A stretch of 64,000 bases of DNA, taken from NCBI GenBank assembly GCA_002840435.1, contig PHAT01000007.1, positions 1 to 64,000 of the forward strand. Direction: 5' to 3'. This document shows positions 10,702-14,917 of this stretch, in pieces. The notes under the pieces were generated by a model. The model worked only from the letters and a program-made list of their open reading frames with translations. It was not told where the DNA came from and did no database searches. The DNA is from Deltaproteobacteria bacterium HGW-Deltaproteobacteria-6 (lineage in GTDB: Bacteria > Desulfobacterota > Syntrophia > Syntrophales > Smithellaceae). Each line of letters begins with the position of its first letter. The first letter of the stretch is position 1. Both the position numbers and the translations under genes were made by a program.

Positions 10702-11118
10702 GTGATTATTTATGATGTGAAATGTGAGAATGGCCATAAGTTTGAAGGATGGTTTAAAGACCGGCAGGCCTGGATTGAGCAAAACGCTCAGCGACTGATT
10801 TGTTGCCCCGTTTGTAACAGTTCCAGTGTGGAAATAGTACCTTCTTCCATTACCATTATGGGGAAGGATTCAAAAATGTCGGCTAAAAAAGAGGAGATGA
10901 ACATTACTCCGGAGCAGGCTCTTCAATTATTGCACCAATATATTGACCACAACTTTGAAGATGTCGGGAATAAATTTGCAGAAGTCGCCCTGAAGATACA
11001 CATAGGTGATGAAGAAAAAAGAAATATCAAAGGGACAACGACGCCGCAGGAAGAAGCGGACTTAAAAGAAGAAGGTGTTTCGTTCGTAAAAATCCCTCTG
11101 CTCAAAATGGACAGCTGA
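10702..11118 (+). CDS. DUF1178 family protein
   Basis: A 138-aa protein resembling DUF1178. The N-terminal MIIYDVKCENGHKFEGWFKD is the family hallmark. C8 and the pair C34/C37 (CCPVCNS) look like a small zinc-binding site. The C-terminus has the conserved KFAEVALKIHIGDEEKRNIKG and a hydrophobic ...VKIPLL end. It starts at GTG 10702 after AAAGAGAG. Function unknown. Confidence 0.85.
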   Translation: MIIYDVKCENGHKFEGWFKDRQAWIEQNAQRLICCPVCNSSSVEIVPSSITIMGKDSKMSAKKEEMNITPEQALQLLHQYIDHNFEDVGNKFAEVALKIHIGDEEKRNIKGTTTPQEEADLKEEGVSFVKIPLLKMDS

Positions 11119-11207: not shown

Positions 11208-13523
11208 ATGATAAACGCTTATAAAAGTATTGTTGATCGTATTGGCAACACTCCTCTTGTGGAAATAACCAGACTCAATCCTAATAAAAAGGTAAAAATA
11301 TTTGCAAAGCTGGAGTCCGCCAATCCCGGTGGTTCCATTAAAGACCGCACTGCTTTGTTCATGATTGAAAATGCCGAGAAAAGGGGAGACTTGAATCATG
11401 ACAAGATTATTCTGGAGGCAACCAGCGGCAATACCGGCATAGGACTGGCTATGATCGCCGCGGCAAAAGGCTACAAGTTGTGTCTGACGATGTCTGAATC
11501 GGCCAGTGAAGAACGAAAAAAAATTTTGCGGGCAATGGGCGCTGAATTGCATTTTACACCGGCGGCTCAAGGGACGGATGGGGCGATTGAAGTTGCCTAT
11601 CGGATGCTCAGAGAAAATCCCGACAAATATTTCGGGACCGATCAGTTTAATAATGAAGACAATATTGCCGCCCACTATTTTGGAACAGCTCAGGAGATAT
11701 GGGATCAGACGGCTGGTCAGGTTACCACGGTGGTAGCCACTCTGGGCACGACGGGTACCGCTATGGGCCTTTCCAAAAAGCTCAAGGAACATAATGAGCA
11801 AATCAAGATTATCGGCGTCGAACCTTATTTGCAGCATAAAATTCAGGGGCTCAAAAACATGCGGGAGTCCTATCGTCCGGGGATCTTTGATAAGAAGCGT
11901 CTCGATGAAAAAGTGAATATTCTGGATGAAGATGCTTTTGAAATGTCCCGTAAACTTGCCCGTGAAGAAGGGATCCTGGTGGGAATGAGTTCGGGTGCGG
12001 CGATGTTTGTAGCTGCCCAGAAGGCCCGCGAAATGGAAGAAGGTCTGATCGTGGTTATTTTCCCGGACAGTGGCGAGCGCTATTTAAGCACTGAATTGTT
12101 TACAGTAAAAGAAGAATTGGCTACGGTTAGCCTTTACAATATTTTGAAGCGTCAGAAATCGTTTTTCCGGCCGCTGAAATCGGAAGAAGTGTTAATGCAT
12201 ACTTGCGGTCCCACCGTCCATGACGCACCCCACCTGGGAAATTACCGTCGCCTGGTGGTGTCTGACCTGTTATGCCGTTATCTGACATTCAAAGGCTATC
12301 AGGTCAAGCATGTCATCGATATCGTTGATTTTACTGATAAGTCCATTCGTGGTTCGGAAAAAGCGGCGATGGAACTCGCGGATTATTCCAATAAATATTT
12401 GCAGGTTTTTCTGGACGATGCGCAGTTTTTAAATATTCGCCCGGACAATATATATGTGAAAGCCTCCGAAAATGTTGATGCCATGTTCAAAATTGTCGAG
12501 AAATTAGTCGATAAGGGGTTTGCGTACGAGAAGCTTCATTCTGTTTATTTTGATATTTCCAAACTATCTGATTATGGTCTTCTTTCCAATATCGATTTAG
12601 CCAAAACCCGATTGGGACGGTCGATTGATCTTGATGATTATGAGAAGGACAATCCGGCCGACTTTGCGCTGCTGAAAAGAGCCGGTCTGGGGGAGTTGAA
12701 AAGAGGTATTTATCATAAGACGAAATGGGGTAATATCCGTCCTGGCTGGCATCTGGAATGTGCGGCTATCTCTCAAAAATACCTGGGAACGGCTTATGAT
12801 ATTCATATCAGCGGAGCGGATGAAACGTTTCCCCACTGCGAAAACATCATTGCAATTAATAAAGCTTTTTCGGGTCACAGCGGTGCAAACTACTGGATAG
12901 GCGCTGAGCTGATTCTGGTGGACGGACGGAAGATGTCCCGTTCTTTGAATAATGCCGTAACGATTGCCGATCTGAAACAAAACGGGTATAGTGGGAGGGA
13001 CATCCGGTTTTTTCTGCTGGGGATGAATTACCGCAAGCCGATCAGTTATTCCGAAAAGGCTTTGCAGGCAGCGAAAAACACCGTCAAGAAAATAGACACT
13101 TTTGTTTACCGGCTTCATGCAGTCGATAATGATACTCAAAATTTCCCCGATGTAGATCAGGTTATTTACGATCTTCATCATGATTTTGAGAAAGCTCTTG
13201 ATGATGATATTAATATATCCGGTGCTCTGGCGGCATTTTTTGATTTTATTGGCAAAGTCAATGCGCCTTTGACTGAGGGGAAAATAAGCAGGACAGACGC
13301 CCGAAAAATTGTTAAAATACTTGAAAAAATAAATGAAATACTTGGCATAATGGATTTTGGAGAACAAACGCGCAGTCAGGAAATCACCGGGCTTATTCAA
13401 AAAAGAGATTCCGCTAGAAAAGCGGGAAACTGGGAGGAAGCGGATTTGCTGAGGAATCAGTTGGCCAGGGCAGGCGTTGAGGTTTTGGACAGTCAACAGG
13501 GAACCATCTGGCGTTTTAAATAG
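11208..13523 (+). CDS. Fused cysteine synthase (CysM-like) / cysteinyl-tRNA synthetase
   Basis: A single 771-codon frame with two full enzymes. Residues 1-305 are a PLP-dependent cysteine synthase: PLP lysine K45 in PGGSIKDR, substrate loop TSGNTG (72-77), phosphate loop GTTGT (180-184, as in CysM rather than CysK) and SSGAA (261-265). Residues 308-771 are a class I cysteinyl-tRNA synthetase: CGPTVHD with zinc ligand C333, HIGH motif as HLGN (342-345), second zinc cysteine C518 in HLEC, KMSKS as KMSRS (575-579), and an anticodon-binding C-terminus ending in GTIWRFK. The zinc residue matching E. coli Glu238 is Ile547, while H543 and C544 replace the usual His-His. No internal stop or frameshift occurs at the joint (about 300-310). 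Making cysteine and charging tRNA-Cys in one polypeptide suggests channelling or dosage coupling; that is inference. Confidence 0.9.
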   Translation: MINAYKSIVDRIGNTPLVEITRLNPNKKVKIFAKLESANPGGSIKDRTALFMIENAEKRGDLNHDKIILEATSGNTGIGLAMIAAAKGYKLCLTMSESASEERKKILRAMGAELHFTPAAQGTDGAIEVAYRMLRENPDKYFGTDQFNNEDNIAAHYFGTAQEIWDQTAGQVTTVVATLGTTGTAMGLSKKLKEHNEQIKIIGVEPYLQHKIQGLKNMRESYRPGIFDKKRLDEKVNILDEDAFEMSRKLAREEGILVGMSSGAAMFVAAQKAREMEEGLIVVIFPDSGERYLSTELFTVKEELATVSLYNILKRQKSFFRPLKSEEVLMHTCGPTVHDAPHLGNYRRLVVSDLLCRYLTFKGYQVKHVIDIVDFTDKSIRGSEKAAMELADYSNKYLQVFLDDAQFLNIRPDNIYVKASENVDAMFKIVEKLVDKGFAYEKLHSVYFDISKLSDYGLLSNIDLAKTRLGRSIDLDDYEKDNPADFALLKRAGLGELKRGIYHKTKWGNIRPGWHLECAAISQKYLGTAYDIHISGADETFPHCENIIAINKAFSGHSGANYWIGAELILVDGRKMSRSLNNAVTIADLKQNGYSGRDIRFFLLGMNYRKPISYSEKALQAAKNTVKKIDTFVYRLHAVDNDTQNFPDVDQVIYDLHHDFEKALDDDINISGALAAFFDFIGKVNAPLTEGKISRTDARKIVKILEKINEILGIMDFGEQTRSQEITGLIQKRDSARKAGNWEEADLLRNQLARAGVEVLDSQQGTIWRFK

Positions 13524-13533
13524 AGATAAGCTT

Positions 13534-14355
13534 ATGGGGAAAATAAGAAGATCCGTCATAGCCGGTTCCTGGTATCCCGGGGACCCCTCCGTGTTAAGAA
13601 GCGACATCACCAGGTATTTTCAAAATGTGCCCGATCGGGGTCTGAAGGGAGAAATTGTCGGTTTAATTGTGCCCCATGCCGGCTATATTTATTCCGGCCA
13701 GGTTGCGGCTCATGCCTATAAAATGATTCAGGGCAGGAAATATGATGCGGTTGTTCTTATCGGACCTAGTCACAGGGTTGCTTTTAGCGGCGTATCGATA
13801 TATGATAATGGCGCTTATGAAACACCTTTGGGTCTGATCCCTGTTGATGAAACTATTGCTGGTGAACTGAAAAATATAACTGATATTATCATTGATTTTC
13901 CTGCTGCTCACACACAGGAACATGCTTTAGAGATTCAACTTCCTTTTCTGCAGATTGCTCTGGGGAATTTTTCGTTGATACCGCTGGTAATGGGGGATCA
14001 GGATGCTGCGACTTGCCGGGAACTTGCAGACGTGGTCAGTCAGGTGTCCAAAAATCGTCACGTGTTGATTGTGGCCAGCAGTGATCTGTCTCATTTTCAT
14101 GATTATAAAAAAGCAAGCCAATTGGACGGGATTGTACTCAAACACATTCAAGATAATAATGTTGAAGGACTCTTGGACAGTTTAGCTCATAATGAAACCG
14201 AAGCGTGCGGCGGCGGGCCGATGGCCGTGGCCATGTTGGCGGCAAACAAACTGGGCGCTCATCATTCGCTGCTTCTGGAATATGCCAATTCGGGAGACGT
14301 GACGGGGGATAAGAGATCAGTGGTCGGTTACACATCAGCAATTTATTATCGATAA
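13534..14355 (+). CDS. amrB: AmmeMemoRadiSam system protein B (MEMO1 family)
   Basis: A 273-aa MEMO-family protein. The residues matching the metal site of human MEMO1 are present: H48 (VPHAGYIYSG), H80 (IGPSHRVAF) and C225 (EACGGGPM). SDLSHFHDY (183-191) and QEHALEIQLPFLQ are the other conserved blocks. ATG 13534 gives the standard start; the frame runs upstream inside the fusion gene without similarity. Ten bases follow the fusion gene and 13 precede the AMMECR1 gene, so they likely form an operon. The usual radical-SAM third member is not in this window. Confidence 0.9.
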   Translation: MGKIRRSVIAGSWYPGDPSVLRSDITRYFQNVPDRGLKGEIVGLIVPHAGYIYSGQVAAHAYKMIQGRKYDAVVLIGPSHRVAFSGVSIYDNGAYETPLGLIPVDETIAGELKNITDIIIDFPAAHTQEHALEIQLPFLQIALGNFSLIPLVMGDQDAATCRELADVVSQVSKNRHVLIVASSDLSHFHDYKKASQLDGIVLKHIQDNNVEGLLDSLAHNETEACGGGPMAVAMLAANKLGAHHSLLLEYANSGDVTGDKRSVVGYTSAIYYR

Positions 14356-14368
14356 AACAGAGGATAAA

Positions 14369-14917
14369 ATGGAATTAACGGATCAGGAAAAAAAGGCACT
14401 TCTGGACATTGCCAAAAGAGCAATTATGGCAAAGGCCGGCAATAGAGAATTACCTAAATTAACAATTGATTTACCGATTCTCAATGAAAAAAGAGGCGCT
14501 TTTGTCACACTAAAGAAACGGGGACATCTGCGCGGGTGTATCGGTTATATTAAGGCGGTCAAACCGCTGGGAGATACGGTGCAGGAAATGGCCATCGCCG
14601 CTGCCTTTCATGATCCACGTTTCCCGTCGGTCAAGGGTGATGAGATCCGCGATTTGAGCTTTGAAATATCTGTGTTAAGCCCCCTTCAAAAGATTAAAGA
14701 TATAGAGGATATTGAAGTAGGGAAGCATGGTTTGTACATCGTTCGGGGGTATAATTCCGGTTTGCTTTTGCCGCAGGTGGCAACGGAATATGGATGGGAC
14801 AGAGAAACTTTTTTGAAAGAAACTTGTTATAAAGCCGGTTTGCCTCCCAAAGCATGGAAAGATAAAGAAACTGAAATATATATTTTTTCCGCAGATTATT
14901 TCAGCGATAAGGATTAG
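14369..14917 (+). CDS. amrA: AmmeMemoRadiSam system protein A (AMMECR1 domain)
   Basis: A 182-aa AMMECR1-domain protein. The family signature LRGCIGY is at 49-55 (GHLRGCIGYIKA), followed by AAAFHDPRFPSV and the FEISVLSPLQKI stretch. The family function is unknown, but it pairs with MEMO proteins in bacteria and archaea as part of a predicted modification system. Ribosome site GAGG lies eight bases before ATG. No partner radical-SAM gene is adjacent. Confidence 0.9.
   Translation: MELTDQEKKALLDIAKRAIMAKAGNRELPKLTIDLPILNEKRGAFVTLKKRGHLRGCIGYIKAVKPLGDTVQEMAIAAAFHDPRFPSVKGDEIRDLSFEISVLSPLQKIKDIEDIEVGKHGLYIVRGYNSGLLLPQVATEYGWDRETFLKETCYKAGLPPKAWKDKETEIYIFSADYFSDKD

Follow-up and report, generated by a model that had tools for sequence, protein, structure and literature searches.

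The gene at positions 11,208 to 13,523 of the window, by which we mean the whole 64,000-nucleotide stretch of DNA that was analyzed, raises the question of what a protein related to cysteinyl-tRNA synthetase (CysRS) does at the C-terminus of a cysteine synthase. In most organisms, these two enzymes act separately (PMC5424206, excerpt). The original prediction described an in-frame fusion of an intact PLP-dependent synthase to a complete class I CysRS, which would channel new cysteine into charging or couple to persulfide chemistry.

Architecture, distribution, and descent of the fused gene

The gene is one uninterrupted frame of 771 amino acids in which both Pfam and NCBIfam matched the two halves, in agreement with the predicted fusion as one polypeptide. 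Pfam placed PALP at residues 10-287 (7e-72), tRNA-synt_1e at 320-623 (4e-79), DALR_2 at 660-714, and CysS_C at 724-769, so that the full CysRS domain set, DALR_2 and CysS_C included, is present. The NCBIfam models cysKM (TIGR01136; 369.1 bits, cut-off 344.15) and cysS (368.9 bits, cut-off 340) both exceeded their thresholds, while the narrower synthase models cysM (364.6 of 394.2) and cysK (324.9 of 350.95) did not. None of the best 25 of the 51 matching NCBIfam models describes the fusion, and no PDB chain spans both halves among the best 60 of 141 and the best 60 of 110 matches. The features of the gene are as follows.

11208..13523, + strand: whole fused gene, 771 amino acids (uninterrupted ORF; full-length homologues)
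11235..12068, + strand: cysteine synthase half of fold-type II PLP enzymes, residues 10-287 (Pfam PF00291; TIGR01136 at 369.1 bits, above cut-off)
11340..11342, + strand: K45, presumably the PLP lysine (invariant in 99/99 fused representatives)
12105..12128, + strand: linker, residues 300-307 (alignment of 99 proteins; low pLDDT at 294-303)
12165..13076, + strand: CysRS-like catalytic domain, residues 320-623 (Pfam PF01406; predicted fold matches 1u0b_B)
12231..12242, + strand: HLGN replacing HIGH, residues 342-345 (alignment)
12846..12848, + strand: Ile547 replacing the zinc ligand E238 of E. coli CysRS (alignment to 1li5)
12930..12944, + strand: KMSRS replacing KMSKS, residues 575-579 (alignment)
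13185..13349, + strand: DALR_2 domain, residues 660-714 (Pfam)
13377..13514, + strand: C-terminal anticodon-binding domain CysS_C, residues 724-769 (Pfam)
13404..13445, + strand: stretch reading anticodon base G34, with R733, R737, W742, and D746 (alignment to 1li5)

The second half may be translated separately but would have no good start codon for this: codons 285-329 contain no ATG, the first one being at codon 330, and the alternative starts near the junction are TTG at 297, 304, and 313 and GTG at 328. The distance from T295 to N311 is 16-17 residues in 88 of the 99 fused representatives, which were retained from 149 sequences at a 90% identity cut. A cysteine synthase and a full-length CysRS-like half are fused as one real polypeptide.

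With the whole protein as query, the fusion was found full-length in 33 of 40 relatives and in pieces in three others (G017, G029, and G031); it was not found in the remaining four, G002 (69% complete), G016 (84%), G033 (92%), and G036 (100%). In a sample of the phylum, 117 of 297 genomes matched it at E <= 1e-110 (105 of the 245 genomes of good quality; 79 of 198 genera), three of them (G053, G104, and G150) by partial matches only. The fusion therefore recurs widely in the phylum, and a stop removed near codon 300 by a sequencing error, which had been named as a possible artifact, is ruled out because the same architecture recurs in so many genomes. Scanning contigs of named genomes yielded 78 fusion loci from the best 80 of 99 confirmed stretches, under titles that include Smithella, Syntrophaceae, Syntrophobacterales, Desulfobacteraceae, Desulfobulbaceae, and Desulfarculaceae. 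One record titled Candidatus Gracilibacteria (L102) holds a fragment with 82% identity to the fused gene and is perhaps a misbinned contig. At two loci, L214 (G053:C1) and L093, the fused gene is broken into two overlapping frames; in G053, a one-contig genome, this frame-split gene holds the sole cysteine synthase match.

In a tree of the CysRS half, 98 fused and 35 free sequences were parted by one branch of length 0.92, and the pairwise identities of the two halves correlated at 0.85 (4753 pairs). Both results would fit a single old fusion event. Two relatives without the fusion carry free-standing synthases (G033:C7:243103-243990 and G036:C6:35794-36699) that are 53-54% identical to the fused half, and these would be either proteins that lost the module or pre-fusion relatives.

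Among 34 close relatives, the median dN/dS was 0.06 for the synthase, 0.09 for the catalytic part of CysRS, and 0.13 for the C-terminal part, the fastest evolving of the three (277 pairs with a median dS of 1.1-1.5, hence partly saturated). In these relatives, purifying selection acts on the CysRS half, which is retained at its full length. AlphaFold2, given a 39-sequence alignment, modeled the fused protein with a mean pLDDT of 85.5 and a pTM of 0.62, a value that would leave the arrangement of the domains open. The predicted fold matched 1u0b_B, a CysRS bound to tRNACys, up to the C-terminus (Z 49.5, 446 residues, 3.6 Å); CysRS chains were the best PDB fold matches among the at most 50 listed, and cysteine synthases matched the first half with Z up to 39.9 among the matches listed.

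Activation motifs and anticodon contacts of the synthetase half

The description of the second half as a complete class I CysRS stood in part: it is full-length, with HLGN and KMSRS at the predicted places, but HIGH, KMSKS, and the zinc ligand E238 are replaced. Reading the zinc positions against the ligands that we take to be those of E. coli CysRS, E238 among them, the window copy keeps three of the four (C333, C518, and H543), with Ile547 at the E238 position and a Cys adjoining the H234 position. Among the 99 fused representatives, HIGH was canonical in two and KMSKS in none, and all four zinc ligands were present in 33. HIGH, KMSKS, and the zinc set occurred together in 0 of 99 fused proteins versus 35 of 35 free CysRS, a panel favoring canonical sequences, as 29 of its members were the top scorers of a ranked list. 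Under lenient criteria (HxG and KxS[KR]), both motifs were kept in 59 of 98 fused proteins, the window's included, at least one was lost in 39, and both were lost in 18 (98 rather than 99, the frame-broken L214 being left out); 12 of the 98 kept the lenient motifs along with all four zinc ligands. The extreme C-terminus is shortened in eight representatives.

These losses speak against channeling into charging as the function of the family, the canonical set being found in none of the 99 proteins and a motif core being lost in 39 of 98. However, variants such as HIGN would be no proof of inactivity. The only free CysRS match of G197, a one-contig genome, carries HIGN and KMAKS, so that we do not call HLGN dead, and channeling may still occur in the window's own copy. 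As both motif cores are kept in 59 of 98 proteins, these copies, that of the window among them, may still charge tRNACys. Two free sequences from G142 and G197 (L263 and L264) represent another type of free CysRS, which has HIGN and KMAKS and carries an insertion following the NITD motif.

The suggested persulfide link is weakened. In E. coli CysRS, the lysines reported to bind PLP are K73, K76, K266, and K269, of the motifs KIIK and KMSK (PMC5660078, excerpt). The window protein keeps two of these four (K378 and K575) and has R381 and R578 at the others, and the K269 position is a lysine in 2 of 99 fused proteins. Since the KIIK/KMSK lysines are not kept, an identity as CysRS persulfide synthase (CPERS) was rejected.

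As to second, free-standing cysS and cysK genes, which the original prediction had raised, the window's genome has both: a free CysRS at C7:79397-80857 (TIGR00435, 556 bits), which shares 33% identity with the fused half, as well as two free cysteine synthases, at C6:31633-32529 and C2:74627-75544. At least two CysRS-domain matches (PF01406, 1e-40) were counted in 106 of the 117 fusion genomes, this tally, like those of the canonical set and of single cysKM matches, having been made by hand from long lists. Eleven fusion genomes had a single such match, and in 8 of the 10 examined (all except G115, 62% complete) a separate CysRS, whole or in pieces, was present (G062, G075, G078, G104, G110, G143, G248, and G309); among the 10, a separate CysRS was not found in G044 (79% complete) and G252 (82%). 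The fusion as the cell's only CysRS was rejected on these grounds.

This inventory bears on the possibility of a bifunctional enzyme that makes and charges cysteine on one polypeptide, the decayed motifs being secondary losses. Such an enzyme would agree with a half that is full-length, under purifying selection, and in the window still equipped with HLGN and KMSRS, with the 59 of 98 proteins that keep both lenient motifs and the 12 that add the four zinc ligands, and with HIGN in the sole free CysRS match of G197. It agrees poorly with the canonical set being found in no fused protein, with the E238 ligand missing from the window copy, with the further CysRS-domain match in 106 of the 117 fusion genomes and the separate gene, whole or in pieces, in 8 of the 10 others examined, and with the many lineages that lose the motifs yet keep the half, and we consider it unlikely.

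The residues that read the anticodon behave differently from the activation motifs. In the E. coli complex, R427 and D436 form hydrogen bonds with G34, W432 stacks on it, and R423 contacts it through a water network (PMC12684709, excerpt). The GCA anticodon and U73 serve as the major identity elements of tRNACys (PMC9976931, excerpt). In the alignment to 1li5, R423, R427, W432, and D436 correspond to R733, R737, W742, and D746 of the window protein. The R423, R427, and D436 positions are kept in 98, 97, and 98 of the 99 fused proteins, respectively, and the W432 position is W, F, or Y in 98, the exceptions being the frame-broken L214 each time and a Lys for R737 in L218.

Taken as groups, the HIGH (0.54) and KMSKS (0.62) columns show no greater loss than the remaining free-invariant columns (0.61). 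In the 18 fused proteins that lost both motifs, R423, R427, and D436 were kept in 18/18 and the W432 position was aromatic in 18/18, against a mean retention of 0.56 for the 142 free-invariant columns. Random triples of these columns match the retention of R423/R427/D436 (1.0) in 1.2% of draws; the triple tested was the one named by PMC12684709, a five-residue anticodon set having been picked after viewing the alignment. In the same proteins, 33 of the 142 columns were kept at 0.95 or more. Loss thus appears to be tolerated at HIGH and KMSKS and not at the anticodon contacts, which would point to a kept reading of tRNA, although the signal is suggestive, not overwhelming: some of the highly kept columns must presumably be structural, and the two arginines and the aspartate could themselves be structural rather than tRNA-reading.

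The window's genome contains one tRNACys (GCA) among 45 Rfam tRNA matches, all read with ARAGORN, an incomplete inventory that comes from a draft of 53 contigs, holds no tRNA-Ile, and covers the Rfam tRNA family. A special second tRNACys or a suppressor tRNA for the fused half was sought, and none was present among the 45 matches.

The synthase half and its possible control

The intact PLP synthase half was borne out, with K45 and GTTGT at the predicted places. Besides K45, whose role as the PLP lysine we take from the family, the window protein carries TSGNTG and GTTGT, and ten site residues (K45, S73, G74, N75, T76, Q146, G180, T181, G183, and T184) are identical in 99/99 fused representatives; T72 is replaced by Ser in 6 of 99. 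Of the 117 fusion genomes, 61 contained exactly one cysKM match (1e-60), and in 55 of the 61 completeness was 90% or more and contamination 5% or less. The place of the sole cysKM match (1e-20) was checked in 12 of the 61, eight of them one-contig genomes, and it lay inside the fused ORF in 12/12. Because the sole match sits in the fused ORF, the fused protein would, by homology, be the only cysteine synthase of the cell in many relatives. The fused half probably makes cysteine, for which the lone cysKM match in 61 of 117 genomes is indirect support. A serine acetyltransferase-like gene of the window's genome scores just under the cut-offs (cysE, 165.8 of 210.65; EpsC, 149.6 of 150).

We give about an even chance to the reading that this protein is a cysteine synthase with a C-terminal, CysRS-derived regulatory module that binds tRNACys, both the binding and the gating being what we infer from the comparisons above. 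The module would bind tRNACys, and its occupancy, most plausibly by free versus cysteinylated tRNACys and hence a measure of cysteine demand, would change synthase activity because a short linker joins the halves. Charging for translation would be left to the separate CysRS. That uncharged tRNACys activates the synthase is a guess at the direction of this control. As a general argument, sulfide would tell a cell in a sulfidic habitat nothing about its need for cysteine, so that a signal based on tRNA would be sensible there. A stronger version is put forward tentatively, with the odds somewhat against it: across much of the phylum, a built-in tRNACys sensor from a retired synthetase would gate cysteine synthase according to whether tRNACys is charged, as a protein analogue of the T-box riboswitch for habitats in which sulfide is seldom in short supply. 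The two free synthases of the window's genome, and the presence of a synthase without the fusion in G033 and G036, count against regulation.

The module might instead be a HisZ-like small-molecule sensor, in which the CysRS fold would bind cysteine or a nucleotide for feedback and the anticodon domain would be only structural. The H234 position is His in 99/99 fused proteins and the W205 position Trp in 93/99, and HisZ, an adenylation-less HisRS paralogue, mediates feedback on HisG (PMC9437257, excerpt). Nevertheless, E238, HIGH, and KMSKS vary while the anticodon contacts do not, which makes such a sensor distinctly improbable. We hold still less with a passive scaffold, a ligand-free CysRS half serving oligomerization or solubility: motif decay would be expected of it, but the anticodon contacts persist in 18/18 motif-poor proteins and the whole half is under purifying selection in close relatives. 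In RNA-dependent cysteine synthesis, a convergent counterpart of SepRS/SepCysS, the CysRS half would hold a mis-acylated tRNACys whose amino acid the PLP half would turn into cysteine; such chemistry is described for SepCysS (PMC5424206, excerpt). All that speaks for it here is that a module reading tRNACys lies next to a beta-replacement PLP enzyme, and with a synthase half that scores as an ordinary cysteine synthase and both a serine acetyltransferase-like gene and a standard CysRS in the genome, it is extremely improbable.

Relation to known systems and gene neighborhood

Regulation through a tRNACys-binding module would have partial parallels. Cystathionine beta-synthase has a related PLP core, as the PDB matches indicate, but its C-terminal regulatory part is a CBS pair, not a synthetase. 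T-box riboswitches respond to free tRNA and thereby adjust the supply of amino acids; they are RNA elements that act on gene expression, whereas the fused module would act on the enzyme. Synthetase-derived regulatory modules are known, but to our knowledge none on a cysteine synthase. In excerpts of the open-licence PMC literature, we found no report of a fusion of cysteine synthase to CysRS, for which database entries may exist, and no description of tRNACys control of a cysteine synthase.

The closest likeness is to HisZ-HisG(S), in which a non-charging module of synthetase origin regulates an enzyme that makes the same amino acid (PMC9437257 and PMC9734150, excerpts). HisZ is, however, a separate subunit, whereas the fused protein is one polypeptide with the anticodon-reading residues kept, and control is shown for HisZ while we only infer it for the fused protein. 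MshC is also derived from CysRS: its model TIGR03447 matches fused residues 294-686, and its fold matches with Z 43. The model (411 positions) ends before CysS_C, and the fused protein reaches 179.1 bits against a cut-off of 485.1. CysRS* of Desulfobacterales is likewise a second, deviant CysRS, but it has no anticodon domain and pairs with SelC* (PMC9437257, excerpt), whereas the fused protein has DALR_2 and CysS_C. By the MshC model and the excerpt on CysRS*, these two CysRS offshoots that left tRNACys are without the anticodon domain, unlike the fused protein. In the draft genome G172, where a standard CysRS was not seen, a 419-amino-acid CysRS-like protein (L262, G172:C145) with HLGH and KMSKS and without an anticodon domain resembles the published CysRS*. 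Halobacterial LeuRS2 is another synthetase duplicate, with drastically reduced charging and preserved tRNA affinity; a fusion to a biosynthetic enzyme goes unmentioned in the same excerpt of PMC9437257.

If the regulatory reading is true, the cysteine supply of many members of the phylum would be under post-translational control by tRNACys, and one gene family would display various stages in the conversion of a catalytic synthetase into a module that reads tRNA. It would also be a warning that fused proteins are not to be counted as a second charging enzyme.

The neighborhood was compared at 74 loci, divided into Syntrophales and others by means of a tree. Outside the Syntrophales, even the commonest neighbor family occurred in just 6 of 42 loci, and an operon partner or pathway link is therefore not supported. 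In the window, the AmmeMemoRadiSam system proteins B and A lie directly downstream (13534-14917), and they follow the fused gene in 20 and 18 of the 74 loci, respectively, all of them Syntrophales. Upstream (10702-11118) lies a 138-amino-acid protein with a CCPVC motif and no NCBIfam match at 1e-10, whose family occupies position -1 in 25 of the 74 loci, again all Syntrophales.
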